Source: Hyphomonas sp. CY54-11-8 (GTDB taxonomy: Bacteria > Pseudomonadota > Alphaproteobacteria > Caulobacterales > Hyphomonadaceae). From it: 64,000 nt of DNA. Of the stretch, positions 21,412 to 61,290 are shown one piece after another. The first letter of the stretch is position 1. Each line of letters starts with the position of its first letter. The DNA lies in NCBI RefSeq assembly GCF_000682735.1, contig NZ_AWFD01000033.1, forward strand, positions 1-64,000, read 5' to 3'. The position numbers and the translations under genes were made by a program. Below the pieces are notes generated by a model. The model did not search any database. It saw only the letters and a program-made list of their open reading frames with translations, and was not told the origin of the DNA.

Positions 21412-22581
21412 TCATGCACCCACGATGGCCGGGAGCGCTTTGCAGAAACGTTCCACGTCTTCGATCTTGCCGGTCGAGACACGCGTCCAGTCGACATAAT
21501 CCATGTATTGTCCGCGGACTGATATTTTCTGCTCAGCGAACGCTTTCTGGACGTCGTTGGCTGCCTTGCCGGATTTGAAGAAGACGAAATTCGTCTGCGA
21601 CGGCAGGTATTCGAGGCCGAGCGTGTCTAGCGTGGTCGTGATCATTTCACGAGCTTCTTTGACCTTCGCCTTGGAATAAGCCAGGAATTCCTCGTCATTG
21701 TAGCAACCGATGGCCGCTGCGTACGACGTGCACGGCGACCAGGACATGGCCGTTGCCTGAATCTTCTGGGCAACTTCCGGCGAAGAGATCGTGTAGCCCA
21801 TGCGGATACCGGCCATGCCGTAGATCTTCGAGAAGGTCCGAGACACGATCACATTCGGATTGTCCTTGATCAGGCCGATGCAGGTGTTTCCTTCCGGATC
21901 GTCGGCCAGTTCCATATAGGCTTCATCGACCAGAACCATCGTCTTGGAAGCCATGCGAGTCACAGCGGCTTTCAGCGTCGCCGCGTCTGCCACGAGGCCA
22001 GTCGGGTTGTTTGGATTGCAGAGCTGGACGAGGCCGGTTTCGGTCGTGACCTTCGCCTCAATACCTTCGAGGTCGGTTGTCATGTCCGCTTTCAGCGGCA
22101 CACGGTCAATGGTCGCCATGCCGAGACGGGCGGCATAGAGGGCCGTCGTATCCCAGAACAGACGCGGCGCAACGATCGGGCCATTCGGACCATAGATCAT
22201 TGCTATCGCCGACAGCGCTTCGCCCGAGCCGGTGGTCAGCGCAATCTGCTCCGGCGCGACGCCGTTCTTTTCGGCAATCATCGTTGCCAGCTGTTTCACC
22301 GCATCCTGCGAAGCATAATAGGCGCCTTTCGAACCGGCATATTCGATCATTTTCAGCGCGGACGGTGACGGGCCGTAAGGGTTCTCGTTGCGCGAAAGAA
22401 GCGCCACGCCTTCCGGCGGACCGAGGAGGTAGGGGTTTTCAACAGCGACCTTCTCAGGCGGGAAGGCAGCCTCTGTGGTTTCCGCGATCGCGGATGCGCC
22501 CGACGCGCAGGCTGTTGCGCCTGCTACACCGAGGCCGGTCGCGCCAGCCAGAAGAAAACGTCTGGAAATATCGTAAGCCAT
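21412..22581 (-). CDS. Tat-exported PLP aminotransferase, histidinol-phosphate-aminotransferase-like
   Basis: 389-residue fold-type I aminotransferase close to the HisC/class I-II family. Visible: LSRNENPYGPS, TTGSGEALSAIA, LCNPNNPTGL, VDEAYMELADD, and the PLP lysine in SRTFSKIYGMAGIRMGY. The product starts with a twin-arginine signal (SRRFLLAGATGLGVAGATAC) that ends in a possible lipobox cysteine, so it seems to be folded with its cofactor and then exported. Periplasmic transamination is unusual because the amino donor and acceptor must also be there. It is not in a histidine operon. Neighbours are an amino-acid-oxidase-like Tat lipoprotein, a dipeptidase and TonB receptors. Confidence 0.9.
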   Translation of the reverse strand: MAYDISRRFLLAGATGLGVAGATACASGASAIAETTEAAFPPEKVAVENPYLLGPPEGVALLSRNENPYGPSPSALKMIEYAGSKGAYYASQDAVKQLATMIAEKNGVAPEQIALTTGSGEALSAIAMIYGPNGPIVAPRLFWDTTALYAARLGMATIDRVPLKADMTTDLEGIEAKVTTETGLVQLCNPNNPTGLVADAATLKAAVTRMASKTMVLVDEAYMELADDPEGNTCIGLIKDNPNVIVSRTFSKIYGMAGIRMGYTISSPEVAQKIQATAMSWSPCTSYAAAIGCYNDEEFLAYSKAKVKEAREMITTTLDTLGLEYLPSQTNFVFFKSGKAANDVQKAFAEQKISVRGQYMDYVDWTRVSTGKIEDVERFCKALPAIVGA

Positions 22582-23119: not shown

Positions 23120-25747
23120 CTAGAAGTTGGCCTGCAGTTTGACGTAGTAATAGCCACCCTGCCAGTCGATGATGTCACCGGAGCGATAGATCCGGCCACA
23201 GCAGCTGTCGCCGAGTTCCGCTTCATCCGGATACTGGTCGAAGGCATTACGCGCACCGAGCGAGATCTTCACCGCTTCAGAAGCCTGGAAGGATCCCTCA
23301 AGGTCCACCTGAACCTTCGCGCCATAATCCTGATAGCGCAGCGGAGCGTTCGAACCGTCAGAGTTCGTCGACTCACCGTAGTAGTTAGCGCGTGCCAGGA
23401 AGCTGTACGGGCCGACGTCATGCGTCACAGAGAACACGCCGCGCCATTTCGGATCGTAGTTCACGAAGTCATACTGGTCTTCATCGTTAAACAGGCTACC
23501 AACATCGCTGTCGAACTCGGTCTTGTTGTAGTTCACAGATGCGGTGAACTTGGTCGAAGACCCGTTTGCCCAATCTTTGGAGTAGGTACCGACCACGTCG
23601 ACACCCTTTGTGCTCGTGTCGAATGCGTTGGTGAAGTAGAACACGCCACCGATCGATTCAGCACCGACAACCCCAGCACCGACAAGGGCGAGATAGTTGT
23701 CATACGCGGTTCCGGATGTCGGATCCGTTGACACATCCTGCGTCGAGATCGCGTTCACACGATCTTCCAGGTCGATCTGGTAGAAGTCGACCGTCAGCGA
23801 GAAGGCATCATAGGAAGACGTGAAGCCCAGCGTGTAGTTGGTGGACTTCTCTGGCTTAAGCGGTTCGGCACCCAGTGCGCCAGCGATCGGACCGCCTGCC
23901 GGGAACAGACCGGTTGCAACCGGGAAGCCATTCGGGAGGCGGGTCGACACGTTGGTTGTACCTTGCTGACCCGGTGTCGGAGCGCGGAAGCCCGTACCGA
24001 CTGACCCGCGCACCGCGAAAGCCGGCGTGAATTCGTAACGGCCAGCCAGTTTCCAGACCAGTTCGGAGTCGAAGTCCGAATAGTCTTCAAAGCGCAGAGC
24101 ACCTTGCAGGAACAGGGAGTCGGTTACGTCAGCACTCAGATCACCATAGATGGCGTAGGAGTCGCGGGTATATTCACCAGAGAACTCCGGTGAGTAGCCC
24201 GGGAAGCCGTTCGAACCCACACCGAGCGCCGTGTAGACGGGATCGGAGGAGTCAGCGCAATCCAGTGTGGAGCCGTTCGCGATGACGGCTGCACCTGCAG
24301 CGGTCGGCGCACCTGCGTCACAGAAACCGTACGGATCCGGAAGCGAGTAAGGCCCATCGATGTAGGACTCGTAGTTTCCACCAACGAGCTCGTAGGATTC
24401 GTCCAGGTAGCTGGCACCGAAAGCGAAAAGCAGCGGGCTGGCCAGACCAGTTTCAAATTCCTTCGAGAAGTCGGCCTGCAGTTGCATTTCTTCGTTGATC
24501 AGGTCACCCGGATGGAAGCTCGTCGGTGACATTTCTCCGAGCGACGGGTTGACCGTGTTCTTCAGCGTATACTTGATCTCGTTATGACCAAGACGGCCGC
24601 TGAAATCATAGGTGATACCGTTGTCCCACTCGCCACGCACACCACCGACACCGGAATAGTCGATGACGTTACCGAAGAAGCGCGGGGTAAAGCCGCCCGG
24701 GAATAGGTAGAGCGACGACCAGAGCGAACCATCCTCAAGGCGAATGTTTTCGATCGTGCCGTTACCTGGATAACGATAGAAGAAGCTGCCGTCAGCTTCT
24801 GAGTTCGAGTAGTTGCCGAACCCGTAAAGCTCGAATGTACCAAAGTCATAGCCAGCATTCACAAAGGTACGGAACGCTTTGGCGTTTGGCTGACCCCAAG
24901 GCTGAACCACGCCAGAACCGGAATAGTCAGCGCTGTCGAGGCCGGCGATGAAGGAGTCCAGATCGAACCCGGCGATGGAAGTATCACCTGGAGCAAAGTC
25001 CGGGCTGTTCACGTCCACACAGACCCAACTTTCACAATATTGTTCGCCGCGAACGGTCATATCCGCTTTTGAGTATTCGGCCGAAACGTTGACGAAGCCA
25101 TTGTCGCCAAGCGCAAGACCGAAGTTGCCAGCAAGGGTCGTGTTGAAGCCGTCGCCCTCATAGTACTGACCGAAGTCTGCGCTGATGGAACCACCTTCCG
25201 GCGAGTCCTTCAGGATGAAGTTGATAACGCCGGCAATGGCATCCGAACCGTACTGGGCTGCAGCGCCATCGCGCAGAACCTCAACACTCTTAAGAGCGAT
25301 AGCCGGGATGGTTGCGATATCCGGACCCTGCGTACCGGAACCGCCGATCTGCACCAAAGCGGCGCGGTGACGGCGCTTGGAGTTGACCAGAACAAGCGTC
25401 TTGTCGGTCGGCATGCCACGCAATGTGGCCGGGCGGATGAATGTGCCGCCATCCGAAATCGGCTGACGTGCCAGCGAGTAAGACGGAACCAGCGTCTTGA
25501 TGATATCGTTGGCGTCCGTGAACGGCACGTCGGATATTTCGTCCGAGCTAAGAACATCTACCGGAACCGGAGAATCCATGACGGACCGCGCTTTACCCCG
25601 CAAGCCGGTGATGATGACTTTTTCCTGGACGGAAGTTTCGTCTGCTGCCGGTTCATCGTCAGGCTCTGCATAAGCCACCCCCCCGGTGACCACCATTCCA
25701 ACGACCGCGGACGATACGGCACATTTCAAGAAAGAACTAAATCGCAC
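23120..25747 (-). CDS. TonB-dependent outer-membrane receptor (TBDR B), leader controlled by an ANTAR RNA
   Basis: 875-residue receptor: signal peptide (FLKCAVSSAVVGMVVTGGVAYA), plug (EKVIITGLRGKARSVMDSPV, RGMPTDKTLVLVNSKRRHRA, SVEVLRDGAAAQYGSDAIAG) and barrel ending in YYVKLQANF. The frame stays open upstream to 26074, but GTG 25747 is chosen: it has GGAAAGGGA at about 8 nt and puts the signal peptide at the amino terminus. The 365-bp leader holds two tandem hairpins with A-x-x-G hexaloops, the recognition pattern of ANTAR antiterminators, and the ANTAR gene is the next gene upstream on the same strand. No STN domain. The ligand is unknown; amino-acid-type enzymes flank it. Confidence 0.95.
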   Translation of the reverse strand: MRFSSFLKCAVSSAVVGMVVTGGVAYAEPDDEPAADETSVQEKVIITGLRGKARSVMDSPVPVDVLSSDEISDVPFTDANDIIKTLVPSYSLARQPISDGGTFIRPATLRGMPTDKTLVLVNSKRRHRAALVQIGGSGTQGPDIATIPAIALKSVEVLRDGAAAQYGSDAIAGVINFILKDSPEGGSISADFGQYYEGDGFNTTLAGNFGLALGDNGFVNVSAEYSKADMTVRGEQYCESWVCVDVNSPDFAPGDTSIAGFDLDSFIAGLDSADYSGSGVVQPWGQPNAKAFRTFVNAGYDFGTFELYGFGNYSNSEADGSFFYRYPGNGTIENIRLEDGSLWSSLYLFPGGFTPRFFGNVIDYSGVGGVRGEWDNGITYDFSGRLGHNEIKYTLKNTVNPSLGEMSPTSFHPGDLINEEMQLQADFSKEFETGLASPLLFAFGASYLDESYELVGGNYESYIDGPYSLPDPYGFCDAGAPTAAGAAVIANGSTLDCADSSDPVYTALGVGSNGFPGYSPEFSGEYTRDSYAIYGDLSADVTDSLFLQGALRFEDYSDFDSELVWKLAGRYEFTPAFAVRGSVGTGFRAPTPGQQGTTNVSTRLPNGFPVATGLFPAGGPIAGALGAEPLKPEKSTNYTLGFTSSYDAFSLTVDFYQIDLEDRVNAISTQDVSTDPTSGTAYDNYLALVGAGVVGAESIGGVFYFTNAFDTSTKGVDVVGTYSKDWANGSSTKFTASVNYNKTEFDSDVGSLFNDEDQYDFVNYDPKWRGVFSVTHDVGPYSFLARANYYGESTNSDGSNAPLRYQDYGAKVQVDLEGSFQASEAVKISLGARNAFDQYPDEAELGDSCCGRIYRSGDIIDWQGGYYYVKLQANF

Positions 25748-25768
25748 TTTGTATTCCCTTTCCGCAGC

Positions 25769-25795
25769 GGAACCAACACTCACAATTGAGGTTCC
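25769..25795 (-). promoter_or_regulatory. Ribosome-site-proximal hairpin with an alternative partner
   Basis: In the transcript GGAACC (25795-25790) pairs with GGTTCC (25774-25769). The TTCC of the second arm can instead pair in TTCCGCTGCGGAA, whose last bases touch the GGAAAGGGA ribosome site of TBDR B. The two folds exclude each other. Confidence 0.4.
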
Positions 25796-25878
25796 GTCTG
25801 CCCCCTGTTGTCGAGCACACACCAGCTTCCCCCATTGGGCAGAACGCCCAAGGCACTGATATCCTGAGGTGTTAAGTC

Positions 25879-25949
25879 GGCCCGCCGTTGAGCCACATAC
25901 GTCAGCAGACTGCTCAAAATGCCTCCGTTGGCATTCAGTTCCTGCTGAC
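25879..25949 (-). promoter_or_regulatory. ANTAR-type tandem hairpin RNA element
   Basis: Read 5' to 3' on the minus strand. Hairpin 1 is AATGCC-AACGGA-GGCATT (25935-25918), enclosed by a perfect 8-bp pair GTCAGCAG/CTGCTGAC (25949-25942 with 25908-25901). Hairpin 2 is GGCTC-AACGGC-GGGCC (25894-25879) with one U-G pair. Both hexaloops have A at position 1 and G at position 4 and are closed by C-G, matching the published ANTAR recognition rule. The 3' arm of hairpin 2 can alternatively pair with GCCC in the hairpin at 25851-25835, giving a possible switch. Located about 130 nt before the TBDR B start codon. Confidence 0.75.
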
Positions 25950-26112
25950 TTGCCTATCAAGCTGTCCTGCGCCCCCGCGAATGCCAATTCGAAACGTGTC
26001 GCCGGTGATGCTGAATCGTTAACCCGTCTCGCTTTTGTGCACCGCACACCAAACAACGCCCAAAGTCTCAGCACTCAGAATGCAGAAATCAGGCTCCAGA
26101 AGATCAGAGGTT

Positions 26113-26766
26113 TCATGGAAAAATCGCGAAGATTGCGAGAATGTTTTCTGCGATCTCCCGCAGTGGTTTTCCCTGAGTCATGGCCATGCGGCGCATGGAA
26201 TCATAGACTTCCTGCTCCGCGAGACCGCTCTTCGTCATCAACAGGCCCTTGGCACGCTCAATTGTCTTGCGGGCTGCGAGGTCTTCCTGCGTTTTCTGCA
26301 ACTGATCCTGCAGGGACAACGTCAACGCATGACGCTCCTCTGCCACATTCAGGATTGCAGGCACGCGTTCTGGCTCCAGTCCATCGACTATGAATGCACT
26401 GACGCCGAGCTTCAGCGCCCTGCTCATCTCTTCCCGGGATCCCTGATCGACGAACACGAGCACCGGCACAGAGCGGAACCTGCGCATCGTCAGAAGTTCT
26501 GTCAGCAATTCCAGATCTGCAGTTGGCGAGGCGATAAGAATTGCCCGCGCGCCCATCAGTCTCAACCGCCGGGTCTGCCAGTCCGCCTGCCCCGTGATTT
26601 CGGTGTGATGCGGTTGGTCACCCAGCCCATTTGAGATCTGCCTGGCCCGCGCTTCATCGCTGGCAAGCACCAGGATCTGCCCACCCCAACTCCCCATTTC
26701 AGACACGGAAATGGATTGCTGTTGCTCTTCCAGCAAGACTGTACTGCGGGGATTCTCGGCAGCCAT
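26113..26766 (-). CDS. ANTAR-domain RNA-binding antiterminator with a degenerate receiver
   Basis: About 217 residues, AmiR/NasT type. The amino-terminal half folds like a response-regulator receiver (GGQILVLASDEARARQISN), but where the phosphorylated aspartate should follow the third strand the sequence is ARAILIASPTADLELL, so phosphorylation at the usual site is unlikely. The C-terminal half is a clear ANTAR domain (ARKTIERAKGLLMTKSGLAE, then EVYDSMRRMAMTQGKPLREI), preceded by a coiled-coil-like linker. ANTAR proteins bind paired hexaloop hairpins in nascent mRNA and prevent termination; exactly such a pair lies 160-235 bp downstream. The start is uncertain: ATG 26766 is used, TTG 26796 and ATG 26697 are possible. 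Confidence 0.9.
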   Translation of the reverse strand: MAAENPRSTVLLEEQQQSISVSEMGSWGGQILVLASDEARARQISNGLGDQPHHTEITGQADWQTRRLRLMGARAILIASPTADLELLTELLTMRRFRSVPVLVFVDQGSREEMSRALKLGVSAFIVDGLEPERVPAILNVAEERHALTLSLQDQLQKTQEDLAARKTIERAKGLLMTKSGLAEQEVYDSMRRMAMTQGKPLREIAENILAIFAIFP

Positions 26767-50470: not shown

Positions 50471-53419
50471 CTATTCCGGTTTGGTGTAGACGATCTCTCC
50501 GTTTTTCATCACTTCACTGACGCTCAAAGTGTTGGCAATATCTGCTAACGGGTCGGCATCCAGGATGGTGATATCGGCAAGATAGCCCGGCGCAATCTGA
50601 CCCAGTTGATCGCCGACACCGATTGCCTCAGCGGCCTGACTTGTCGCCAGCTTCAATACGGTTGCATTGGGCACACCAGCTTCGGAATAAACTGCAAGCT
50701 CATCATGAAGTGAAGCACCATAAGGCACGAACGGGGAGTCCGTGCCGGCAACTATTTTGCCGCCATTCTCGATGATTTCTACCAATGCATCCTGACCGGC
50801 CTGAACGAATTCCGAACCTGCCCGCTTTCCCATCGCGAGCGTGGGAGTGACATACATTCCCGATTGCGAAATCAGGGCAATCACATCCTGATAGGAATGT
50901 CCGTTCAGAGAGCTCTTCAGGGAATATCCACGACGACTGGTGGCTCCGAAATGTTCCATCTGGTCAACGCCATTCGCGACAGCAGGATACAATTCATGCC
51001 CGGTAACCGGGATTCCGGATTCATGGGAAAGTTCGATCACCTCTTTCTGAATCGTATAATCCTGCCGCACATAGCTCTTGTAGAGGTCCAGCTTGAGTTC
51101 GGTAGAGAGGCGGACGGAATTGGCGGCCTCTTCCACCGTGCCGACTGTTTCGGAAACGCCGTATGATACTCTCGCCCCCTCGTTCAGCGGTCCGGCTGTG
51201 AACACCCGTGGCGCAGACCGGCGGCCGGCATCTGCCGCTTCCCGGCGTTCGACCGCGTGATAGGGGTCATCGCCTGTCTCACGCACGGTTGTGATGCCAT
51301 ACTTGAACCAGATATCGCCAAGCGCCTTTCCTTGTGTGATCGACTGGTGTGTATGGCTCTCGATCAGGCCTGGAATGACATACTTGTCTGAAGCGTCGAC
51401 CAGCGTCCCGACGAGTTCGGCTGTTCCCGCTGGCTCGATGGAACTGATGACACCATCCTCAACAATGATATCCACATTTTCGAGATATTCACCTGCAGCC
51501 ACGTCGAACATATGGCCAGCGCGGATCGTGTAGTCTTCGTCCGGCATATCACGGTGCCATTCAGGCTTGATGTCGAGCGTGCTTGTTTCGCCGGTAGTTC
51601 GATCGAACAACATGATGTCCGCGCCGTCGATGTAGATCAGTTTGGTTCCATCAGTTGACCAATTCGGATTTTCCCCGGCTTCGGCGACCAGAGAAATTTC
51701 CCCGAGGCTGCCATCTGCAGTCAGAGGCGCCATATAAAGAGCCCCCTGATAACGATACACGATCATGCCGTCAGACGACCAGGCGGGGCGGTTCCATTGG
51801 CGCCGTCCGAGAGAGGCATCCATGCCTTGTGGTGCCACCCATTTGGTCTCACCTTCACCTGAAGCAGGCATCAGGAGAAGGGCATTGTAGCCTTCACGGA
51901 ACCTGTTGGTTTGCGGAAGACGACTAACCACGAGCACAGTATTCCCATCACTCGACCACGCGGGTGGGCTAGGCCCAAAAATCGGTTCGGAAATCACTGT
52001 CTCGCTGCCGGTAGAGACATCAACGATATTAACTGTCGCGCCGAGGAAGATTGTGATGAGCGCATCTGACAAGTATGCAATACTCGACCCATCCGGCGAC
52101 CAGATCGGAGAGTTGGCAGGGCGACTTGCATCAGTTAGCTGAGTAAAGGAACCTGACGCAACTTCCAGCAACCAGACATCAGACTTGCCACCCCGGTCGC
52201 TGACGAACGCAATGCTTGAACCGTCGGGTGACCAGCTGGGAGACATGTCAATAAAATCATCATCGGTAAGCTGCTTTGTCTCGCCGCTCTCCAGGTCCGC
52301 CATCCAGAGGTCCCCAACCGCCGTGAAGACAGCGCTTTTGCCATCAGGAGACAGGGTGGGGTCAATCACACCAAGTGCCGGCTTCGCTTTCCTAGATGTG
52401 AGATCATAAACCCGGCGCTTATAGGGTGTTCGGTTCAACTCAACTGTGGCTGAAAAATCGATGTTCGTTGGCGCTTCAGCATCGGGCGCGATGACATTCA
52501 CCTTGCCGTCAGCTGTGTACAGTACCGAACCGTCTGAAAGCACGGACGGCCGGAACGGGAACACATCCCCTCCTTCCACCAACAATTTTGCGTCGGAACC
52601 ATCCGTGAAGGCCTGGGTAACCAGCCCCTCTCGTCCCAGAAGACCCGCAATAAAGAGAGACTCGCCGTCTGGCGCCCAGACAGGCGCACCAAGTGTATTC
52701 GCCGTATAGGCTATGCTGAACTTCTCTTCCGTATCAATATCCCGGACAACCAGTGCATCCATCTGACCATCGATAACGAATGCGAGTTTCGAACCATCCG
52801 GAGACAGGACTGGGTACACTGCGTTACCAAAGCCTGAGAAGTAAGGTGTCAACGGCGTCTCGTAGCCGGTTTCATCTGCGACAGTCAGCTGCTTCGGCTC
52901 GGCGTCTTCTTCGAGCGTAAGGGACCAGACCTGATAACCCCCTTCAGTATCGGCAGAATAAAGAAGGCTACTGCCATCGGGCGTGAATGATGGGTAACGT
53001 GCATCAGAAGGGCCAAAGGTTCGTTGGGTTAGATCCGATCCGTCAGGCTTCATTGTCCAGATCGTGAAGCCATTCTCCGCATAGGTGTAGAATGCGATCA
53101 GAGAGCCGTCCGGTGACCAGGCCGGCTCATGCGAATCCAGTTCTGCTGGTGTCAGCGCTGTCGCTTCACCACCTTCCGCAGGCAAGGACCACAGAACGCC
53201 CTGCAGCGCCAGGATCAGCATGCTGCCGTCGGGCGACATCGCCGCTGACATATTGGTTCCCTCTGTCATCTCAACGTCGATAAGCACGGGACCGGAGGCG
53301 GAAGCCTCCACCTTGCTTTCGGTCTCAGCTGTTTCACCCGGGCTACTGCAGCCAACCAGAACTGCCGACGCGAACACAAGAACTGCCCCGGCTGATTTCA
53401 ATCGCATTTTATAACTCAC
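50471..53419 (-). CDS. Lipoprotein amidohydrolase with an amino-terminal TolB-like beta-propeller
   Basis: 982 residues. A lipoprotein signal (SAGAVLVFASAVLVGCSS) is followed by about 600 residues of WD40/PD40-type repeats, each with a core like SWSPDGSSIAFVSDRGG. Then comes a metal-dependent amidohydrolase domain (YVIPGLIESHTHQSITQG with HxH; GHELYPAVANGVDQMEHFG; VAGTDSPFVPYGASLHDEL). GTG 53419 is preferred because GGGAGAG is 6 nt upstream; ATG 53407 is the alternative. Such fusions are found beside TonB receptors and peptidases in alphaproteobacteria and are thought to cut cyclic amides or peptide-like bonds. Lies next to gamma-glutamyltransferase on the same strand. Confidence 0.92.
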   Translation of the reverse strand: MSYKMRLKSAGAVLVFASAVLVGCSSPGETAETESKVEASASGPVLIDVEMTEGTNMSAAMSPDGSMLILALQGVLWSLPAEGGEATALTPAELDSHEPAWSPDGSLIAFYTYAENGFTIWTMKPDGSDLTQRTFGPSDARYPSFTPDGSSLLYSADTEGGYQVWSLTLEEDAEPKQLTVADETGYETPLTPYFSGFGNAVYPVLSPDGSKLAFVIDGQMDALVVRDIDTEEKFSIAYTANTLGAPVWAPDGESLFIAGLLGREGLVTQAFTDGSDAKLLVEGGDVFPFRPSVLSDGSVLYTADGKVNVIAPDAEAPTNIDFSATVELNRTPYKRRVYDLTSRKAKPALGVIDPTLSPDGKSAVFTAVGDLWMADLESGETKQLTDDDFIDMSPSWSPDGSSIAFVSDRGGKSDVWLLEVASGSFTQLTDASRPANSPIWSPDGSSIAYLSDALITIFLGATVNIVDVSTGSETVISEPIFGPSPPAWSSDGNTVLVVSRLPQTNRFREGYNALLLMPASGEGETKWVAPQGMDASLGRRQWNRPAWSSDGMIVYRYQGALYMAPLTADGSLGEISLVAEAGENPNWSTDGTKLIYIDGADIMLFDRTTGETSTLDIKPEWHRDMPDEDYTIRAGHMFDVAAGEYLENVDIIVEDGVISSIEPAGTAELVGTLVDASDKYVIPGLIESHTHQSITQGKALGDIWFKYGITTVRETGDDPYHAVERREAADAGRRSAPRVFTAGPLNEGARVSYGVSETVGTVEEAANSVRLSTELKLDLYKSYVRQDYTIQKEVIELSHESGIPVTGHELYPAVANGVDQMEHFGATSRRGYSLKSSLNGHSYQDVIALISQSGMYVTPTLAMGKRAGSEFVQAGQDALVEIIENGGKIVAGTDSPFVPYGASLHDELAVYSEAGVPNATVLKLATSQAAEAIGVGDQLGQIAPGYLADITILDADPLADIANTLSVSEVMKNGEIVYTKPE

Positions 53420-53493
53420 GTTGATCTCTCCCAATTTAGAACCTTAAAACCTTAAGTCCGCTATTACCTAACGAGTACGGACATTAACTAGCC

Positions 53494-55425
53494 TTACCAG
53501 CCTGCCGCCATCGCCATCCGTCGAGGATCGGCCCCCGCCATGACAGCGCCGTTTTCATATGCTCGCACCCCCTGGATGCTTCCGATCGCGTAAGGTCCTA
53601 CATAATCTGCCATGTGTCCCAATGCCTTTAGACCAGAGAGGCATTGCGACGAGAATCTCGATTCCAGCTGCAAGAAGCATTTGGCGCCCGGCAGGTAGAA
53701 GTTCGGGTCAGCCTTCACCGCAAAGCGCGGTGCCTCAATCGCCTCCTGAATTCCCATGCCATGATCGATCAGGCTCATCAGAACCTGAAATTCACTTTGT
53801 CCGATCGTTTCTCCGCCCGGCGTTCCGAATGCAGCCCAAAGCTTGGAATTATTCATGACCACGACCGGGGAGTTGTTGAGGATCGGGATCTGTCCCGGCG
53901 CGACAAAATTCACGTTGTCTTCGTAGGGCGACGTCGACCCCAGGCGCATCCCATTGTTCAAAAGGAAGCCTGTACTGCCCGCGATCACACCGGCGCCGAA
54001 ACCGCCGCCAAGCGTTGTGGTCACAACGATCGTGTTCCCTTCTTCATCAACAACGGTCAGACTTGTCGTATCGCTATATCGGGCGTCGTCGTCAGGCGTG
54101 CGCGTTGCCGACACCGGCGGAGCAGGTGCAGATGGGTCGTAACGCCGGAAATCCGTAACCTCAGGGAACGGCAAAGCCAGCGAAGGGTTTATCATGGCGC
54201 CGCGATCCGCAGCGTATGCTTTTGATACCATCGCCGCGACCGGCACGTCGGCAAATTTCGGATCCGCCGCATAGGCATAGATGTCGGCCTTGGCATGCTT
54301 GATGGCTTCGGCTTGCAGATGCAGCAGCTGCGTACTTCCCGGCTTGAGTGAGGACACGTCAAAGCGCTCTACAAGATTGGCTTGCATACAAACTTCGAGT
54401 CCGCCGCGGGAGGTCAGGGGTGTCGAATAGACTTCGTATCCTCGATAGGTCGTTTTTACCGGGTCTGCCCACTCAGCGTTGTAGGCAGCCAGGTCGGCTT
54501 TTCTCACCCAGCCACCGACTTCGCGGAAAAACCGATCAAGCTCAGCCGCAATTGGGCCGTTGTAGAAATACTCTCTTGCCGCAAGCAGTGCGGTATCGCG
54601 ATCACCACCGCCAGCCAGAACCTTTTGTTCTTCTGCGACCAGCGACTCGAACGTTCTGGCGAGGTTTTCATTGGTCAGAATCTGGCGCGGCTTTGGTGTC
54701 TTCCCACCCGGCAGAAATACTTCCGCCGTGGTCGGGTGCATCTGCAAGCGCCCCTGCATGTACTCTATGATCCGGGCAATGGAGGGATCTATCGGATGGC
54801 CGTTTCTGGCCAAATCAATTGCTGGCGCAATTACATCCCCCAGAGACAGGCGCCCATGCTTGCGAAGCAGTTCGATCCAGCCGTCAAATGCACCGGGGGT
54901 CGTGGCGGCCTTTACCCCCCAGTCAAATGCTTTGGGATCGCTCTTCGGATCTAGTGCGAAAGGTGCCGCGCCGCCGAATTTCAAGGCTCTGACCTGACCG
55001 CTCGGCTTGTCATAGACTGTCGCAAATCCGTTCCCGGCAATACTGGAAGCCCACGGCTCGACCACATTGAGAACAGCCATTGTCGCGACCGCAGCATCGC
55101 CGGCTGCGCCACCTTGCATGAACATCCTCAGACCAGCCGACGCAGCGAGCGGATGACCTGCCGTGACGACGCCGCGCGGACCCGGGGTCTCGACGCGATG
55201 CGCCGCAACGTTCAGGTCACCGCTTTCGGGTGCGTCCGGCGGCCGAACTGGTTCCAGGGACGCAACACCTGAATTTGCCGCGTCTACCGGAGACACACAT
55301 GCAACAGCAACGCCACTTGCGGCAATTGCGCCCGCAGTCAGAAATTTCCTACGGTCCAGACCATGAGCATCCGTATGCTCAAGCTTGTTTCGATCAGCGT
55401 TACTTTGCTCTGTGAGCTTTTTCAT
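53494..55425 (-). CDS. ggt: Gamma-glutamyltransferase, Tat-exported probable lipoprotein
   Basis: 643 residues. The amino-terminal leader contains DRRKFLTAGAIAASGVAVAC, a twin-arginine signal ending at a possible lipobox cysteine. The large-subunit part starts at GVVTAGHPLAASAGLRMFMQ; autocleavage would occur before the Thr of SDTTSLTVVDEEGNTI near residue 453, giving a small subunit with TTTLGGGFGAGVIAGSTG and AAFGTPGGETIGQSEFQVL. In most GGTs the first motif reads TTH; here it is TTS. The enzyme hydrolyses or transfers gamma-glutamyl groups of glutathione and related peptides. It may be co-transcribed with the propeller amidohydrolase 74 bp downstream. Confidence 0.93.
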   Translation of the reverse strand: MKKLTEQSNADRNKLEHTDAHGLDRRKFLTAGAIAASGVAVACVSPVDAANSGVASLEPVRPPDAPESGDLNVAAHRVETPGPRGVVTAGHPLAASAGLRMFMQGGAAGDAAVATMAVLNVVEPWASSIAGNGFATVYDKPSGQVRALKFGGAAPFALDPKSDPKAFDWGVKAATTPGAFDGWIELLRKHGRLSLGDVIAPAIDLARNGHPIDPSIARIIEYMQGRLQMHPTTAEVFLPGGKTPKPRQILTNENLARTFESLVAEEQKVLAGGGDRDTALLAAREYFYNGPIAAELDRFFREVGGWVRKADLAAYNAEWADPVKTTYRGYEVYSTPLTSRGGLEVCMQANLVERFDVSSLKPGSTQLLHLQAEAIKHAKADIYAYAADPKFADVPVAAMVSKAYAADRGAMINPSLALPFPEVTDFRRYDPSAPAPPVSATRTPDDDARYSDTTSLTVVDEEGNTIVVTTTLGGGFGAGVIAGSTGFLLNNGMRLGSTSPYEDNVNFVAPGQIPILNNSPVVVMNNSKLWAAFGTPGGETIGQSEFQVLMSLIDHGMGIQEAIEAPRFAVKADPNFYLPGAKCFLQLESRFSSQCLSGLKALGHMADYVGPYAIGSIQGVRAYENGAVMAGADPRRMAMAAGW

Positions 55426-55528
55426 GAATCCCTGAGCTCCCCTTCAACACCCCATCGCCAATCGCGATGGATGGCTGATGATCAAAGCATGCAGATGAAA
55501 CCAGGGTTCAGCGGTTGACAAGCAACCA

Positions 55529-55555
55529 CCACCCCGGGACGAAAGTCCGGGGTGG
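55529..55555 (-). terminator. Terminator hairpin of TBDR E
   Basis: CCACCCCGGGAC and GTCCGGGGTGG flank GAAA (plus-strand view), an 11-bp stem with one bulged base and a four-base loop, 44 bp past the TBDR E stop. No T run follows on the minus strand. Confidence 0.6.
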
Positions 55556-55598
55556 CACGATTGCACCGCCCCGGACTCCATTCGGAGACCAATCCTTC

Positions 55599-58500
55599 TT
55601 AGAAGGATTTTTTCACATTCACATACCAGTAGCGCGGCAGCGGCTGATACAGGGACGAGAGATAACCGTAGGTATCAGCCAGCGGCGGATCTTCGTTGAA
55701 CGCATTCCGCACACCAACACGAATGGCTGTGCCGTCTGTCCAGGTGTCGTTCTCGACTGTATATTGGCCGTAGAAATTCCAGGTCATATGGTCTTCGATC
55801 GGCCATGGACCATAGGTCGAGCTGCTGACGCTCGTCTGGAAAACTTCGCTGGTGTATTGCGAGAACGCACCGAACTTCCAGTTCGCGATGTCATATGCCA
55901 TCGACATGGAATATTTCCACTCCGGACGCCCGTTCTCCTGGATCAGGCTACCACCGCCGGTGACAGTGACATACGGATTAACCGTTCCGTCAGCCAGTCC
56001 TTCCAGAAGAGCCGCAGCTTCAGCCGTCGGGCTCTGATAGTAGGTGTCCAGATAGGTGGCATTGAGATTGACCGAAAGCTCACCCGGACCAACCGGGACA
56101 TCCCAATACGCACCATAGTCGATTCCTTCGACCTTGAGCGGCGAAAGGTTGGTGAACCGGGCAATGACGTTGACCACATCGCCAACTGGCGTGAGTCCTG
56201 TGCCGGCAAAGTCCGCGATCTGCTGAGGTGTTGGGTCCGCACGGATTACGTTCGGGTTAGAGCTGCCCTGCAAACGAAGCAGATAGTCATACGACAGGGC
56301 GACAGAGTCATTCAGAAGGCCAATCGGGTTCTTCTGCTCAATGCTCCAGACATCTGCCGTGAGCGTGAGCGAACCGAACTTTTCAGGAATGAACTGAGGT
56401 TCGAACACCACGCCGTAGGACGAGCTTTCCGATTCTTCTGGTTCCAGTTCGGAGTTACCCGAGCGCAGGCTGGCAACCGTCACACCCAGCGTCGCACACT
56501 GGCTGAAGTCGGTGATCCGGCCTTGGCTGAGGGCTGCCTCACACTGGATGTAGTCCGGATAGCCATTGACGCGTTCCAGAAGCGGCGTGTTGACCACTTC
56601 AAGGTTCGGCGCCTTGAAACCCTCCGACCAGGATCCACGGAAGCGAAGACCGTCAATGACATCCCACGACATTGCGACCTTCGGCTTCGAGACTGACCCG
56701 ACATCTGAGTAGTCCTCATAACGAGCCGCAGCCTGTAGATCGAGCGCCTGAACGAACGGGATGTTCATCTCAGGTGAGACCAGTGGCACAGCCAGTTCGA
56801 AATAGGCTGAAGAAACATTCCGGTTGCCTTTGACGTCCGGCGATGGGCTGTGTCCCATCAGGCTGGAGTCTGAAACGAGGTTCCCCGTGATCTGGTCATA
56901 GTAAGGCAGCGAGCCATCCTGGTGCGGATCGCGGTCGTCGTGATAGGTCTCACGACGGAACTCGATACCGCCAGCAACACCGATATCACCTGCCCAGATC
57001 GAGAACAGATCCGGCTTGGAAACTTTGAAGTCTGCCAAAGCAAGCGTGGTCTTGTTTTCACGAACCTGAGTGATGCGGAAACTGTCGATCGTTTCCTGCG
57101 AGTTGCAATCCGGAGCGCCGACATCCGGCACCGCCGGATCACCACCACAGAACGGGTTGTATGCGGTGGCGTCTGTACGGTTGATAGCCTCCTGGAACAG
57201 TCGCGAGTCATACCCGTCAGCAGAATCCTTCACGGTGGCTTCGGTATAGAGGATTGCAGAGTCCCAGTCCCATCCGAATGCATCACCTTTTGCACCAGCG
57301 AGGAGCCTGATCTGCTCGTTATCGACGACAACGTCACGTGTACCTGCATCCACGGCGCTGTAGGAGTTGATCACAAGATCCACGCCTTCTGCCGGAACGT
57401 TCGTGCTGAGCCCATCGATACGGTTTGCCGACCCAACAGGCCCCAGCGGGTTCCAGTATGCATCCGAAGCGATGTAGATCGGACCAGATCCCAGGGAACC
57501 ACTGGAAGCAATAACCGCCTCTGACGTCGCATTGTAATAACCAACCTCGCCATACACTCGCAGGCTGTCGGAAACATCGTAGTTCGCGAAGCTGAACATG
57601 TTGAAGCGATCTACCGCCGGCAGCATGGTCAGCGTATCGAAAGTCTCCAGGTCGTCATGCCGCATATCTCTGTATGCAGATGTAAAAATGCTGCCTGCGC
57701 CATAACAAATGTCGCCACCGACATCGTACAGACACCCTGCACCAAAGTCCGTGGGCTGAACGTGGAAGGTGCCTGCCGCGTCAGTGAAAGCTGTGCCGTC
57801 TGCACTGATCTCACCAATAGACGTATCGACCGGCGTGAACTGCCCCCAGGGGCTCGTCCAGGTCGAACGGTTATCCCATGCGACGCCCGCCCAATTGGTG
57901 CCGTCGGTCAATGGGCGCATATCGGCGAGGTTGGTGTACTCCTGGTCAGAGCGCAGCAGGGAATCCCGCGTTGTGCCGCCGAGATAGACAGAGATGTTGC
58001 CTTTGCCGTTCGCGAAATCCGTGCCGTAGAGAATATCCCCGGTGAATTCAGTCAGGTTCGTCCCTTCGGCCAGTCCATATTGAAGATTGACATCCAGACC
58101 TTCGAAGTCGGACCGGAGGACGTTGTTCACAACGCCCGCAACAGCGTCGGATCCATAAAGAGCGGCGGCGCCGTCTTTCAGAACCTCAACGCGCGCCAGC
58201 CCCTGAACCGGAACTGCATTGACGTTGTAACCAAAGACCGGAGTTTGGTTGTCGGTCTGCGATGTCGGGTGGACCACCGAGCGGCGGCCATTGATCAGAA
58301 GCAGCGTATTGCCCTGGGCCAGACCACGCAGGCTGACCGTCGACACGTCACCCCGGGCAGCGTTTGAGTTGCCACCTCCGAGATAAGTGCCGTTGAAGGT
58401 AATATCACCGGCTGAGGGAACGGTCCGGAAGAGCTCTTCTGCGGAAACCGCGCCAGTCGCCTCGATTTCGTCAGGCGATACAACCGAAACCGGAAGGGCG

Positions 58501-58727
58501 CCGGAAACCTTGGCACCAGCAATCTGGGAGCCAACAACCAGAACCTTTTCCATCTGGGCAGTGTCGTCTTCCGCCTCCTCTTGGGCCAACGCCCCTTGCG
58601 ACAGCACACCAAGCAAAAGCGCGCTTGTAGATACTGTCATTGCACAATGCCGCATGAATCGTCCCGACTTCACGACGCGCGCGACGCCGTTCCCGTTCAT
58701 CGACCCCCTCAATCCACTGGATTTCAT
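55599..58727 (-). CDS. TonB-dependent outer-membrane receptor (TBDR E)
   Basis: 1042 residues, the largest receptor here. Signal region RHCAMTVSTSALLLGVLSQG preceded by a basic stretch. Plug: EKVLVVGSQIAGAKVSGALP, VSLRGLAQGNTLLLINGRRS and VEVLKDGAAALYGSDAVAGV. Barrel ends in PRYWYVNVKKSF. ATG 58727 has AGGAG 9 nt upstream; further in-frame sequence to 58829 is not signal-like. No STN domain. Flanked by gamma-glutamyltransferase and an amidohydrolase on the same strand, so a peptide or amide ligand is plausible. Confidence 0.95.
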   Translation of the reverse strand: MKSSGLRGSMNGNGVARVVKSGRFMRHCAMTVSTSALLLGVLSQGALAQEEAEDDTAQMEKVLVVGSQIAGAKVSGALPVSVVSPDEIEATGAVSAEELFRTVPSAGDITFNGTYLGGGNSNAARGDVSTVSLRGLAQGNTLLLINGRRSVVHPTSQTDNQTPVFGYNVNAVPVQGLARVEVLKDGAAALYGSDAVAGVVNNVLRSDFEGLDVNLQYGLAEGTNLTEFTGDILYGTDFANGKGNISVYLGGTTRDSLLRSDQEYTNLADMRPLTDGTNWAGVAWDNRSTWTSPWGQFTPVDTSIGEISADGTAFTDAAGTFHVQPTDFGAGCLYDVGGDICYGAGSIFTSAYRDMRHDDLETFDTLTMLPAVDRFNMFSFANYDVSDSLRVYGEVGYYNATSEAVIASSGSLGSGPIYIASDAYWNPLGPVGSANRIDGLSTNVPAEGVDLVINSYSAVDAGTRDVVVDNEQIRLLAGAKGDAFGWDWDSAILYTEATVKDSADGYDSRLFQEAINRTDATAYNPFCGGDPAVPDVGAPDCNSQETIDSFRITQVRENKTTLALADFKVSKPDLFSIWAGDIGVAGGIEFRRETYHDDRDPHQDGSLPYYDQITGNLVSDSSLMGHSPSPDVKGNRNVSSAYFELAVPLVSPEMNIPFVQALDLQAAARYEDYSDVGSVSKPKVAMSWDVIDGLRFRGSWSEGFKAPNLEVVNTPLLERVNGYPDYIQCEAALSQGRITDFSQCATLGVTVASLRSGNSELEPEESESSSYGVVFEPQFIPEKFGSLTLTADVWSIEQKNPIGLLNDSVALSYDYLLRLQGSSNPNVIRADPTPQQIADFAGTGLTPVGDVVNVIARFTNLSPLKVEGIDYGAYWDVPVGPGELSVNLNATYLDTYYQSPTAEAAALLEGLADGTVNPYVTVTGGGSLIQENGRPEWKYSMSMAYDIANWKFGAFSQYTSEVFQTSVSSSTYGPWPIEDHMTWNFYGQYTVENDTWTDGTAIRVGVRNAFNEDPPLADTYGYLSSLYQPLPRYWYVNVKKSF

Positions 58728-59156
58728 TTTTGCTGACTCCTGAGCTTCTTTTTTCCCGCAAGTCTCCGCCTTGCCGACAGACCCCCTGCCGGACATTCGC
58801 GCAGCTCTTGCACCCGCTGGCACGACCAAGCGCGGCCAGACCTAGTTAAATCTGTATTCGGATTTTTTGTGCGGCCGCCGTTGACCACATTCCTTGCTCT
58901 TCATTGAGCAATAAGCAGGCTATCGGCGCACGCCTCATCGCACACGAAAAAATGTCAATATTTTTCCTTTTTGTGTCAGCTGCACACAAATGTTGCACCT
59001 GCGCAGATAAAATCATCACGCAGTACACAAAGAAATTGGGAAGAAGAAAACCATGGAAATCGCCCCCGGCACCCGACGGGCGATTTCACTTTTTTATTCG
59101 TACACGAATTTTGTTGTTTCGAGCACCCAGACTCGATTATGCAAACGCACTAATGC
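58728..59156. other. Intergenic region upstream of TBDR E
   Basis: 429 bp with no convincing gene. It contains the imperfect inverted repeat TTGTGT-CAGCTGC-ACACAA at 58971-58989, which could be an operator for TBDR E, and a strong terminator-type hairpin at 59056-59095 with its T run on the plus strand. A and T content is higher than in the neighbours around 58940-59050. Confidence 0.5.
59056..59095. terminator. Strong Rho-independent terminator, best on the plus strand
   Basis: GAAATCGCCC (59056-59065), 12-base loop, GGGCGATTTC (59078-59087), then ACTTTTTT. On the minus strand it follows the amidohydrolase stop by 70 bp and is trailed by a weaker pyrimidine tract, so it can end that gene too. 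The plus-strand T run has no annotated gene upstream. Confidence 0.8.
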
Positions 59157-60914
59157 TCAGTAAAACCTGACATTATCAAGCTCATACCATACTGCCTCGC
59201 CGCCCGGCCTCTTGATCAGGAACCGCACATCAACGATGCCATCACCTGACCACTTAACACCTTCCGCGGGAGCGCTAAGATCTTTAAACGGAATACCGAC
59301 AGTTTCCCAATCTTGACCCACTTCGAATTGCCGCTCCCAGCGGCCCTCTGTGGTCGACACAGTCAAGGTGTAGGGTTTCTCATCTCCGCGCATATCGAAG
59401 ACAATGCCCTGATAAGACGCCCCATCCACAGGCTGAACCGACCCAACATTCATTGGAATGACAATACCCGCCCGGGCCTCTTCGCGTAGCGCGAGATCTG
59501 CAGACAGGTGCAGCACACCTCCGCGCTCACCATCGTCGCGAATCTCAAAAACCTGCCAGCTGCGCTCCATCCCTCCATCAGGATCACCAACAACAAGAGT
59601 GTCACGCGAGGAGCGCCCATCTTCCCGGTCGAAATCATCGATGAGTGCGCTCGAAATACTGGACGATTCCATCACAGTCGAGGAAACCGGCACCGGCGCC
59701 CCCTCTCCAAACACCTTGTCTCCGCCAACGAAGGTGTATTTCGTCTTGTGCAAATCGGAAATATCTTCCCAAGGCTTACCGGCGATCAGAACCACATCGG
59801 CATCTTTGCCAACTTCGATGGAGCCGCGCTGGTCATACACCCCAACAGCGCGTGCACTGTTGGAAGTACCCGCCATCAAGGCAGCCTTCGCCGGGAGGCC
59901 CGCGCGCACCATCAATTCCATTTCGGAAAGTGTGGAGTACCCATGTGGCGTACGCGGCATTCCGGCATCGGTACCCAGCGCGATAAGGACGCCACCTTCA
60001 TACAGCGCCTTCATGTTGTCCAAACCCACCTGGAACCGTGCCTGACGCGACTTGAATGTCGGATGCTCGCGCTCAAACTCCGTCGTCTCCGGTTTGTCAG
60101 GATTATAGACAGCAAGCGTCCCCGCGTAAGCCGTACCGCCAGCCTTGAGCGTGTCGATGGTTTCCTGGTCCACATGTTTGTCGAGTACGGAGTGCGCAAT
60201 GATATCCACGCCGGACCGGCCGGCAATCTCAGCCCGGTCCTTGGTCACGGTATGGGTCAGAATCTTCAAGCCATGAGCATGAGCCTCTTCAACCAATGCT
60301 GTCAGGGTCGGCTCATTCATGCTCGTATTGTCGACACCGGAGCCATAACGCCAGCCATCCGTGAAAACTTTGATGACGTCAGGCTTGTAGGGCAGCAGCT
60401 CCTTGACCGCTTCGGTGGCCGCATAGGGTGTGTTGACCCACTTGGTCGTACTCTTGTCAGACCAGTCAGCGCCATGCCCGTTGGTTGTACTCATACGCGC
60501 CGCGAAATTCACACGCGGACCCGGCAGCGACTCCAGCCACTCGCGGCGAGGCGCGAAGGCTTCCGGTGGCTGGGCAAAATCATAAACGGATGTGACACCG
60601 GTCTTGGCATATTCCTGCGAAATCTGAGGCGTGGTCGCCGGCTGGCCAATCGGTGTGTAGTGAACATGCAGGTCAAAGAAGCCAGGCAAAAGTGACAGGC
60701 CGTCGCCATCAATCGCGGGTACGCCCGCGGGGGCAGGCCCGGCCGCCTTGTCGACCGACGAGATAAGACCGTCTTCAAACACCACAGTCGCTTTGTAGGG
60801 ATCAGCACCCGTGCCATCGAAGACTGTGACGCCCGTGATCGCCAGATCCTGAGCAAACGCGGATCCAGCCACGCACACCGCCAAAAGGCACGAATTCAAT
60901 AACCTGCCGACCAT
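59157..60914 (-). CDS. Exported amidohydrolase with a C-terminal CIA30-like domain
   Basis: 585 residues. Sec signal (LLNSCLLAVCVAGSAFA), then an imidazolonepropionase/prolidase-like amidohydrolase: DLAITGVTVFDGTGADPYKA, LSLLPGFFDLHVHYTPIG (HxH), ILTHTVTKDRAEIAGRSG, VDIIAHSVLDKHVD and IALGTDAGMPRTPHGYSTL. After about residue 415 a beta-sandwich follows (LIDDFDREDGRSSRDTLVVG, YQGIVFDMRGDEKPYTLTVS, VDVRFLIKRPGGEAVWYELD) resembling the CIA30/galactose-binding type. ATG 60914 has AGAGGA upstream. It precedes TBDR E on the same strand and is divergent from a TetR gene. Confidence 0.9.
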   Translation of the reverse strand: MVGRLLNSCLLAVCVAGSAFAQDLAITGVTVFDGTGADPYKATVVFEDGLISSVDKAAGPAPAGVPAIDGDGLSLLPGFFDLHVHYTPIGQPATTPQISQEYAKTGVTSVYDFAQPPEAFAPRREWLESLPGPRVNFAARMSTTNGHGADWSDKSTTKWVNTPYAATEAVKELLPYKPDVIKVFTDGWRYGSGVDNTSMNEPTLTALVEEAHAHGLKILTHTVTKDRAEIAGRSGVDIIAHSVLDKHVDQETIDTLKAGGTAYAGTLAVYNPDKPETTEFEREHPTFKSRQARFQVGLDNMKALYEGGVLIALGTDAGMPRTPHGYSTLSEMELMVRAGLPAKAALMAGTSNSARAVGVYDQRGSIEVGKDADVVLIAGKPWEDISDLHKTKYTFVGGDKVFGEGAPVPVSSTVMESSSISSALIDDFDREDGRSSRDTLVVGDPDGGMERSWQVFEIRDDGERGGVLHLSADLALREEARAGIVIPMNVGSVQPVDGASYQGIVFDMRGDEKPYTLTVSTTEGRWERQFEVGQDWETVGIPFKDLSAPAEGVKWSGDGIVDVRFLIKRPGGEAVWYELDNVRFY

Positions 60915-61290
60915 ACTCGTCCTCTGCACTTTGCACGCACGTATATGAACCAGACGCTTTGAACTGACTTTCTATCCAGATCGAACAGAATTTTTTGCTC
61001 AGATTTTTTGGGGGTCATTCACGCCTCTCCGGCGGGCAAACAAACCCATTTAAAGCCTTCAATTCAGAATGTTTTATTTACGTTGCCAAAGTGGCGGTGC
61101 ACGCCTCCAGCGTCCTCTACGAAACATCAGAAAACCGAAAAAGTGCTTTGATTGCATAGCTATAGACCCGATCCGCGTTCGCTGTTGGATAGACTTGGCG
61201 TGCCGATTGCGCTTAACTGTAATGTAAGTATAACAATCACCCCTCAAGCTAAACATGAACGGGGTCAACCGAAGGCTGAGGGGAGCAAGC
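60915..61290. other. Divergent intergenic region between the amidohydrolase and TetR genes
   Basis: 376 bp without a gene. AT-rich patches at 60985-61010 and 61060-61085, a short palindrome ATAGCTAT at 61156-61163, and a likely TetR promoter at 61207-61234. Confidence 0.4.
61207..61234 (+). promoter_or_regulatory. Candidate promoter of the TetR gene
   Basis: TTGCGC at 61207-61212, 16 bp, TATAAC at 61229-61234, about 57 nt before the start codon. Confidence 0.45.

Follow-up and report, generated by a model that had tools for sequence, protein, structure and literature searches.

The window, by which we mean the whole 64-kb stretch of Hyphomonas DNA that was analysed, carries on its minus strand a gene for a TonB-dependent receptor (TBDR1) and, immediately upstream of it in the same orientation, a gene for an ANTAR protein (Table 1). 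The ANTAR systems known best act on nitrogen enzymes of the cytoplasm and on transporters of the inner membrane. The TBDR1 leader contains two hairpins, P1 and P2, whose hexanucleotide loops both have A at position 1 and G at position 4 (A1/G4). An earlier note on this DNA had described them as an ANTAR-type double hairpin, and when the sequence was re-read the coordinates, the strand and the 23-nt spacing were as it gave them; domain matches agree with its placing of the ANTAR gene upstream and a TonB receptor downstream. A second such element, which that note had missed, lies 33 kb from the TBDR1 site in the leader of another receptor, TBDR2. In most lineages an aminotransferase gene follows the ANTAR-TBDR pair.

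Table 1. Features of the window discussed in the text
Feature	Position	Strand	Remarks
Aminotransferase, signal-like N terminus	21412..22581	-	PF00155; follows the ANTAR-TBDR pair in most lineages (synteny)
TBDR1, TonB-dependent receptor	23120..25747	-	PF00593 and PF07715; GTG start
Hairpin directly before Shine-Dalgarno GGAAAGGG	25764..25801	-	One pair changed on both sides; 99% of cells paired
P3, TTGGGC/GCCCAA stem	25835..25851	-	One pair changed on both sides; 100% of cells paired
P2, GGCTC-AACGGC-GGGCC, A1/G4 hexaloop	25879..25894	-	All cells paired; one-sided changes only within the TBDR1 ortholog set
P0 3' arm, CTGCTGAC	25901..25908	-	RNAalifold consensus
P1, AATGCC-AACGGA-GGCATT, A1/G4 hexaloop	25918..25935	-	Three pairs changed on both sides
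P0 5' arm, GTCAGCAG	25942..25949	-	Outer helix enclosing P1; RNAalifold consensus
ANTAR gene	26113..26766	-	Pseudo-receiver, coiled coil, C-terminal ANTAR domain; PF03861, 62.6 bits
Gamma-glutamyltranspeptidase	53494..55443	-	PF01019, 383 bits; downstream of TBDR2
TBDR2, second target receptor (predicted)	55599..58727	-	PF07715, 65.1 bits
Second ANTAR element, TTGCTC-AATGAA-GAGCAA, 5-nt linker, GTGGTC-AACGGC-GGCCGC	58871..58911	-	TBDR2 leader; covariation in 7 sequences
DNA motif GTGCAACATTTGTGTGC	58982..58998	-	Upstream of the second element

The TBDR1 leader and its conservation

Applied to the orthologous leaders, RNAalifold recovered P1 and P2 unprompted, together with an outer helix, P0, that has 95.8% of its cells paired. 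If P0 forms, the 23-nt linker between P1 and P2 in the window is reduced to 6 nt; in most relatives the linker is 5-9 nt long. In the published work, the linkers of the E. faecalis eut RNAs measure 5-12 nt and the search model treats the linker as variable (Ramesh 2012, PMC3369931), EutV is inactive in vivo with a 14-nt linker (PMC3369931), and its activity in vitro is lost when 20 nt are added (PMC8934654). Given this intolerance of EutV for long linkers, P0 is a plausible means of holding P1 and P2 close, and it may in this way shorten the TBDR1 linker; since its changes are one-sided only, this is still a proposal.

The TBDR1 leader and its ANTAR gene occur in 10 of the 42 genomes of the genus, and no TBDR1 ortholog (E below 1e-190) was found beyond the genus in a class sample of 385 genomes. 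The named relatives of the ANTAR gene come for the most part from Hyphomonas. All nine of the aligned orthologous leaders keep both hairpins. Compensatory changes in the P1 stem include GC to AU, UA to CG and AU to GC, and the P1 loops AACGGA, AAAGGC, AATGGC, AATGAC, AACGAC and AATGCT all have A1 and G4. Both loops are of the A1/G4 form in eight of the nine aligned orthologs. The rule is broken in G031, where the P1 loop is AACAGC, and at loci L047 and L060, where the loops of P1 and P2, respectively, start with G. Loss of the hexaloops or of stem compensation from orthologous leaders, which the earlier note had named as grounds for abandoning its reading, was looked for, and both are retained.

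The order of ANTAR gene and receptor gene is kept at 37 loci in six genera. A diverged ANTAR gene stands directly before the same receptor in ten further members of the genus and in five more genera of the family, usually with an aminotransferase next. Tandem A1/G4 hexaloop hairpins were found in 24 of the 35 leaders other than that of the window, from six genera. For the 15 remaining combinations of letters at these two loop positions, the count was none or one of the 35 in each case. One distant leader has GTTC-AATGAC-GAAC with GGCGC-AACGGC-GCGCC, and another has three hairpins, AAGTCC-AAAGAG-GGACTT, GAAGGCAC-AAAGGC-GTGTCTTC and GGCCC-AAAGGC-GGGCC. Eleven of the 35 fall short of the strict tandem criterion, some of them showing one recognisable hairpin only. 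An alignment of 19 elements, most of whose members had been picked for pairing, contains 44 cells changed on both sides, as against 14 in shuffles; the homologous sets (nine TBDR1 and seven TBDR2 sequences) are the fairer test, and they are concordant. The double hairpin before a TonB-dependent receptor, beside its own ANTAR gene, is thus borne out as ANTAR-type by A1/G4 loops and compensatory stem changes in orthologous and distant leaders alike.

The chance of finding a tandem A1/G4 pair (stems of at least 4) in one shuffled leader is about 0.03, some 3%, and a separate shared DNA motif, described below, does exist upstream; both facts favour chance inverted repeats or DNA operators for a transcription factor. 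We consider either origin highly improbable, because stem letters change while pairing and loop letters persist, the enrichment is confined to A1/G4 loops, and ANTAR-less genomes are without the element. The single TBDR1 leader taken alone is only suggestive; conservation secures it. Tandem pairs with stems of at least 5 and loops of the form AA.G.. occur in the 64-kb window twice on the minus strand, both times in a TBDR leader, and not at all on the plus strand, with a shuffle mean of 0.05 per strand.

The reading frame of the window is open from 26074, and the receptor gene might be taken to start near that point, with the hairpins inside the coding region. However, all of the orthologs but G027 have in-frame stops nearer to the GTG codon than has the window (at 13 codons in G004), and the GTG has a Shine-Dalgarno sequence, GGAAAGGG, and a signal-peptide-like start. 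The stops refute the coding extension, and the region upstream of the GTG is therefore leader; we give a start near 26074 practically no chance.

The 110 nt from P2 to the TBDR1 start (25860-25748, minus strand; GGGGGAAGCTGGTGTGTGCTCGACAACAGGGGGCAG) are near-invariant in the orthologs, exceeding in this P1 and its surroundings, and have no Rfam match. Rfam gave no relevant match at the gathering threshold on the window or with permissive settings on the leader.

The TBDR2 element and the extent of the regulon

The TBDR2 element is more canonical than that of TBDR1. In the window and six window-type orthologs (seven sequences) it is kept with compensatory changes and with A1/G4 throughout; in G027, for example, the stems are TTACCC/GGGTAA and GGGATC/GATCCT. 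Two further orthologs, from G005 and G028, which have a diverged ANTAR, show a clear first hairpin and a second that is weak at best. TBDR2 orthologs of at least 81% identity occur in nine genomes only, all with a TBDR-linked ANTAR, and 16 leaders of TBDR2 paralogs (39-47%) contain no tandem hairpin pair. Judging from gene order, the gamma-glutamyltranspeptidase is possibly part of the TBDR2 operon.

The extent of the regulon was scanned using receptor upstream regions and a covariance model. The element is present in 2 of the 45 TBDR upstream regions of the window genome, those of TBDR1 and TBDR2, and at the same two receptors in G004 (30 of 59 receptors scanned); none of 30 receptor upstream regions from the ANTAR-less genome G019 has it. 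Across 30 genomes, the covariance model gave matches below E 0.02 only at TBDR1 or TBDR2 leaders of ANTAR-bearing genomes, most of them training sequences (as is the TBDR2 match, 40.5 bits), the sites at L047 and L060 not being so. The best match in 15 ANTAR-less genomes had an E value of 0.18. A model made from the other elements scores the window TBDR1 site at 16.1 bits, through P2 alone, and window-type TBDR1 leaders are missed genome-wide because of their long linker. With only the TBDR1 and TBDR2 regions among the 45 of the window genome carrying the element, the system looks like a two-receptor regulon.

TBDR2 leaders, and several TBDR1 leaders from other lineages, have a DNA motif, GTGCANCATTNNTGTGC, upstream of P1; besides the window, it was noted in leaders L045, L047, L058, L060, L061 and L194-L200. 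Of the 105 receptor upstream regions scanned, only those of TBDR2 and its G004 ortholog contain it exactly, and the window TBDR1 has only the motif core, GTGCACAAAA. The motif (GTGCAACATTTGTGTGC/GTGCANCATTNNTGTGC) may be a shared promoter or operator.

Genes for amine oxidases, a secreted-type aminotransferase, a D-amino-acid-oxidase-like flavoprotein and isochorismatases lie near TBDR1, and genes for gamma-glutamyltranspeptidase, amidohydrolases and a sodium-solute symporter lie near TBDR2. Within 50471-60929 on the minus strand, the gamma-glutamyltranspeptidase, a beta-propeller amidohydrolase and a second amidohydrolase surround TBDR2 in what is a possible peptide or gamma-glutamyl scavenging cluster. 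The gene surroundings suggest organic nitrogen, which fits the nitrogen theme of ANTAR regulons (PMC3369931).

The ANTAR protein

The protein has its ANTAR domain at the C terminus, after a coiled coil, as in the AmiR/NasT type. An AlphaFold model made with an input of four sequences (pLDDT 78.6) has EutV-RNA and AmiR as its nearest structures. Six residues, R142, K149, E160, Y164, R168 and M172 in EutV numbering, are invariant in all 37 TBDR-linked ANTARs; in EutV these touch G4 or the loop (PMC8934654). The loop residues 173, 175 and 177, which make RNA backbone contacts, vary among the 37. The receiver-like domain is without the phosphoacceptor Asp, the position being occupied by IAS or LAS in the window and its orthologs in an alignment judged by eye.

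On sequence grounds, the ANTAR protein of the window is not a NasT. A single branch with support of 99/96 splits the 37 TBDR-linked ANTARs from 18 NasT proteins, placing it in a separate clade, and no NasS gene lies beside it; neither mark of a NasS-NasT system, an adjacent NasS and a position in the NasT clade, was found. The window genome does hold a NasT with an adjoining NasS (G000 C33:191369-193239, L044), its second ANTAR, about 191 kb along the contig, and it could be supposed that this protein reads the hairpins and that the neighbouring ANTAR has another role. This is very unlikely, given that nine out of ten window-type genomes carry the element while having no ANTAR gene other than the neighbour. 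NasS is absent from the genus outside G000, G015 and G025, all of which have NasT too, so that in 17 of the 20 pair-bearing members of the genus the sensor cannot be NasS. Gene content thus nearly refutes a role for NasT, and since most of the genomes are without NasT or NasS, the neighbouring ANTAR is the sole candidate binder.

Mode of action and relation to known ANTAR systems

Both the TBDR1 and the TBDR2 element of the window show the features that define the dual-hairpin motif of Ramesh 2012, namely two hairpins whose stems have 3 bp or more and whose loops are hexanucleotides, A1 and G4 in both loops, and compensatory change in the stems. On this basis the RNA belongs to the ANTAR target family, with binding predicted. 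An intrinsic terminator overlapping P2 was not found, nor was any other intrinsic terminator with a U-tract in the leaders; by Ramesh 2012 (PMC3369931) such an overlapping terminator is optional and accompanies about 30% of the targets predicted in ANTAR-bearing genomes. The TBDR1 leader element is strongly supported as a genuine ANTAR target RNA, and the Hyphomonas family very probably has a dedicated ANTAR protein/RNA system for TonB-dependent receptors. This reading is based on sequence comparison, which shows the element to be conserved and covarying, the two genes to be kept as a pair, the set to comprise two receptors, and the putative RNA-contact residues to be retained.

Physical binding, activation and readout we infer by analogy with EutV, NasR and AmiR. 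The ANTAR protein would bind the tandem A1/G4 hairpins in the TBDR1 mRNA leader and, in the lineage of the window, those in the TBDR2 leader next to the gamma-glutamyltranspeptidase as well, an activated dimer reading P1 and then P2 on the nascent RNA. Binding would most likely raise receptor expression on a nitrogen-related signal. The favoured readout is relief of premature termination at a non-canonical or Rho-type site, which would lie downstream of P2 and ahead of the start codon; control of ribosome access ranks a close second. The earlier note was right to assign the leader to the ANTAR targets; its antitermination, no intrinsic terminator having been found, is something that we, too, can only infer.

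That note had also proposed a switch in which P2 competes with the TTGGGC/GCCCAA stem (P3). The stem is real and conserved, but the competition was rejected because both helices coexist in the consensus fold. In the MFE structure of one fragment P2 pairs with the hairpin close to the Shine-Dalgarno sequence, but this pairing was gone when the leader was folded with other ends, P2 then forming with a probability of 0.92.

Binding of the ANTAR protein to its target could instead govern translation of the receptor or stability of its mRNA, and we regard this as quite possible, although short of probable. The leaders are without a U-tract terminator and the conserved hairpin abuts the Shine-Dalgarno sequence; moreover, actinobacterial ANTAR RNAs are proposed to work at the level of translation (PMC8164766), and such action is allowed for terminator-less targets (Ramesh 2012, PMC3369931). 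On the other hand, P1 and P2 are not at the TBDR1 start codon, which follows about 130 nt downstream, and the well-studied proteobacterial NasR and AmiR use antitermination. A broader suggestion, which we make tentatively, is that an ANTAR protein with no known sensor partner and no phosphorylation site might answer an organic nitrogen compound and, by means of an added helix or a third hexaloop, control outer-membrane receptors through leaders that lack an intrinsic terminator; such a readout would be undescribed for ANTAR systems.

The EutV system of the Enterococcus eut operon (PMC3369931, PMC8934654) also has two short A1/G4 hexaloop hairpins before the target gene, and its ANTAR protein shares both the receiver-like domain and the residues that contact G4. 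Unlike it, the Hyphomonas system has outer-membrane receptors as predicted targets, no phosphoacceptor Asp and no intrinsic terminator overlapping P2, and its elements include the 23-nt linker with helix P0 in the window TBDR1 leader and three hairpins in some relatives. The receiver-like domains of NasS-NasT in alphaproteobacteria (PMC3795266) and of AmiC-AmiR are likewise not classical phosphorylated receivers, but here there is no adjacent NasS, the clade is separate, and the predicted target is a receptor rather than nitrate or amide enzymes. The actinobacterial ANTAR RNAs (PMC8164766) resemble those of Hyphomonas in belonging to nutrient-transport mRNAs, for which translation control was proposed; the transporters there are ABC, MFS and aquaporin proteins, and an outer-membrane receptor with a dedicated ANTAR is not described in the available part of that paper.

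The earlier note knew of no description of an ANTAR-TBDR pair, and in the open-access literature that was searched no report of one was found. What appears to be new is the outer-membrane receptor target class, together with the lack of a known sensor partner and of an intrinsic terminator, and the helix-bridged or three-hairpin elements. The system suggests that nutrient uptake is controlled at the RNA level in a way not described before: a bacterial family would devote an ANTAR protein to the gate of its outer membrane, the TonB-dependent receptors. As a testable two-receptor regulon whose binding site is kept and whose classic terminator is absent, it bears on how ANTARs act without intrinsic terminators and on how pseudo-receiver ANTARs sense without NasS- or AmiC-like partners.

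Three A1/G4 hexaloop hairpins rather than two are present in the leaders L064, L066, L222, L220, L221, L223 and L116.
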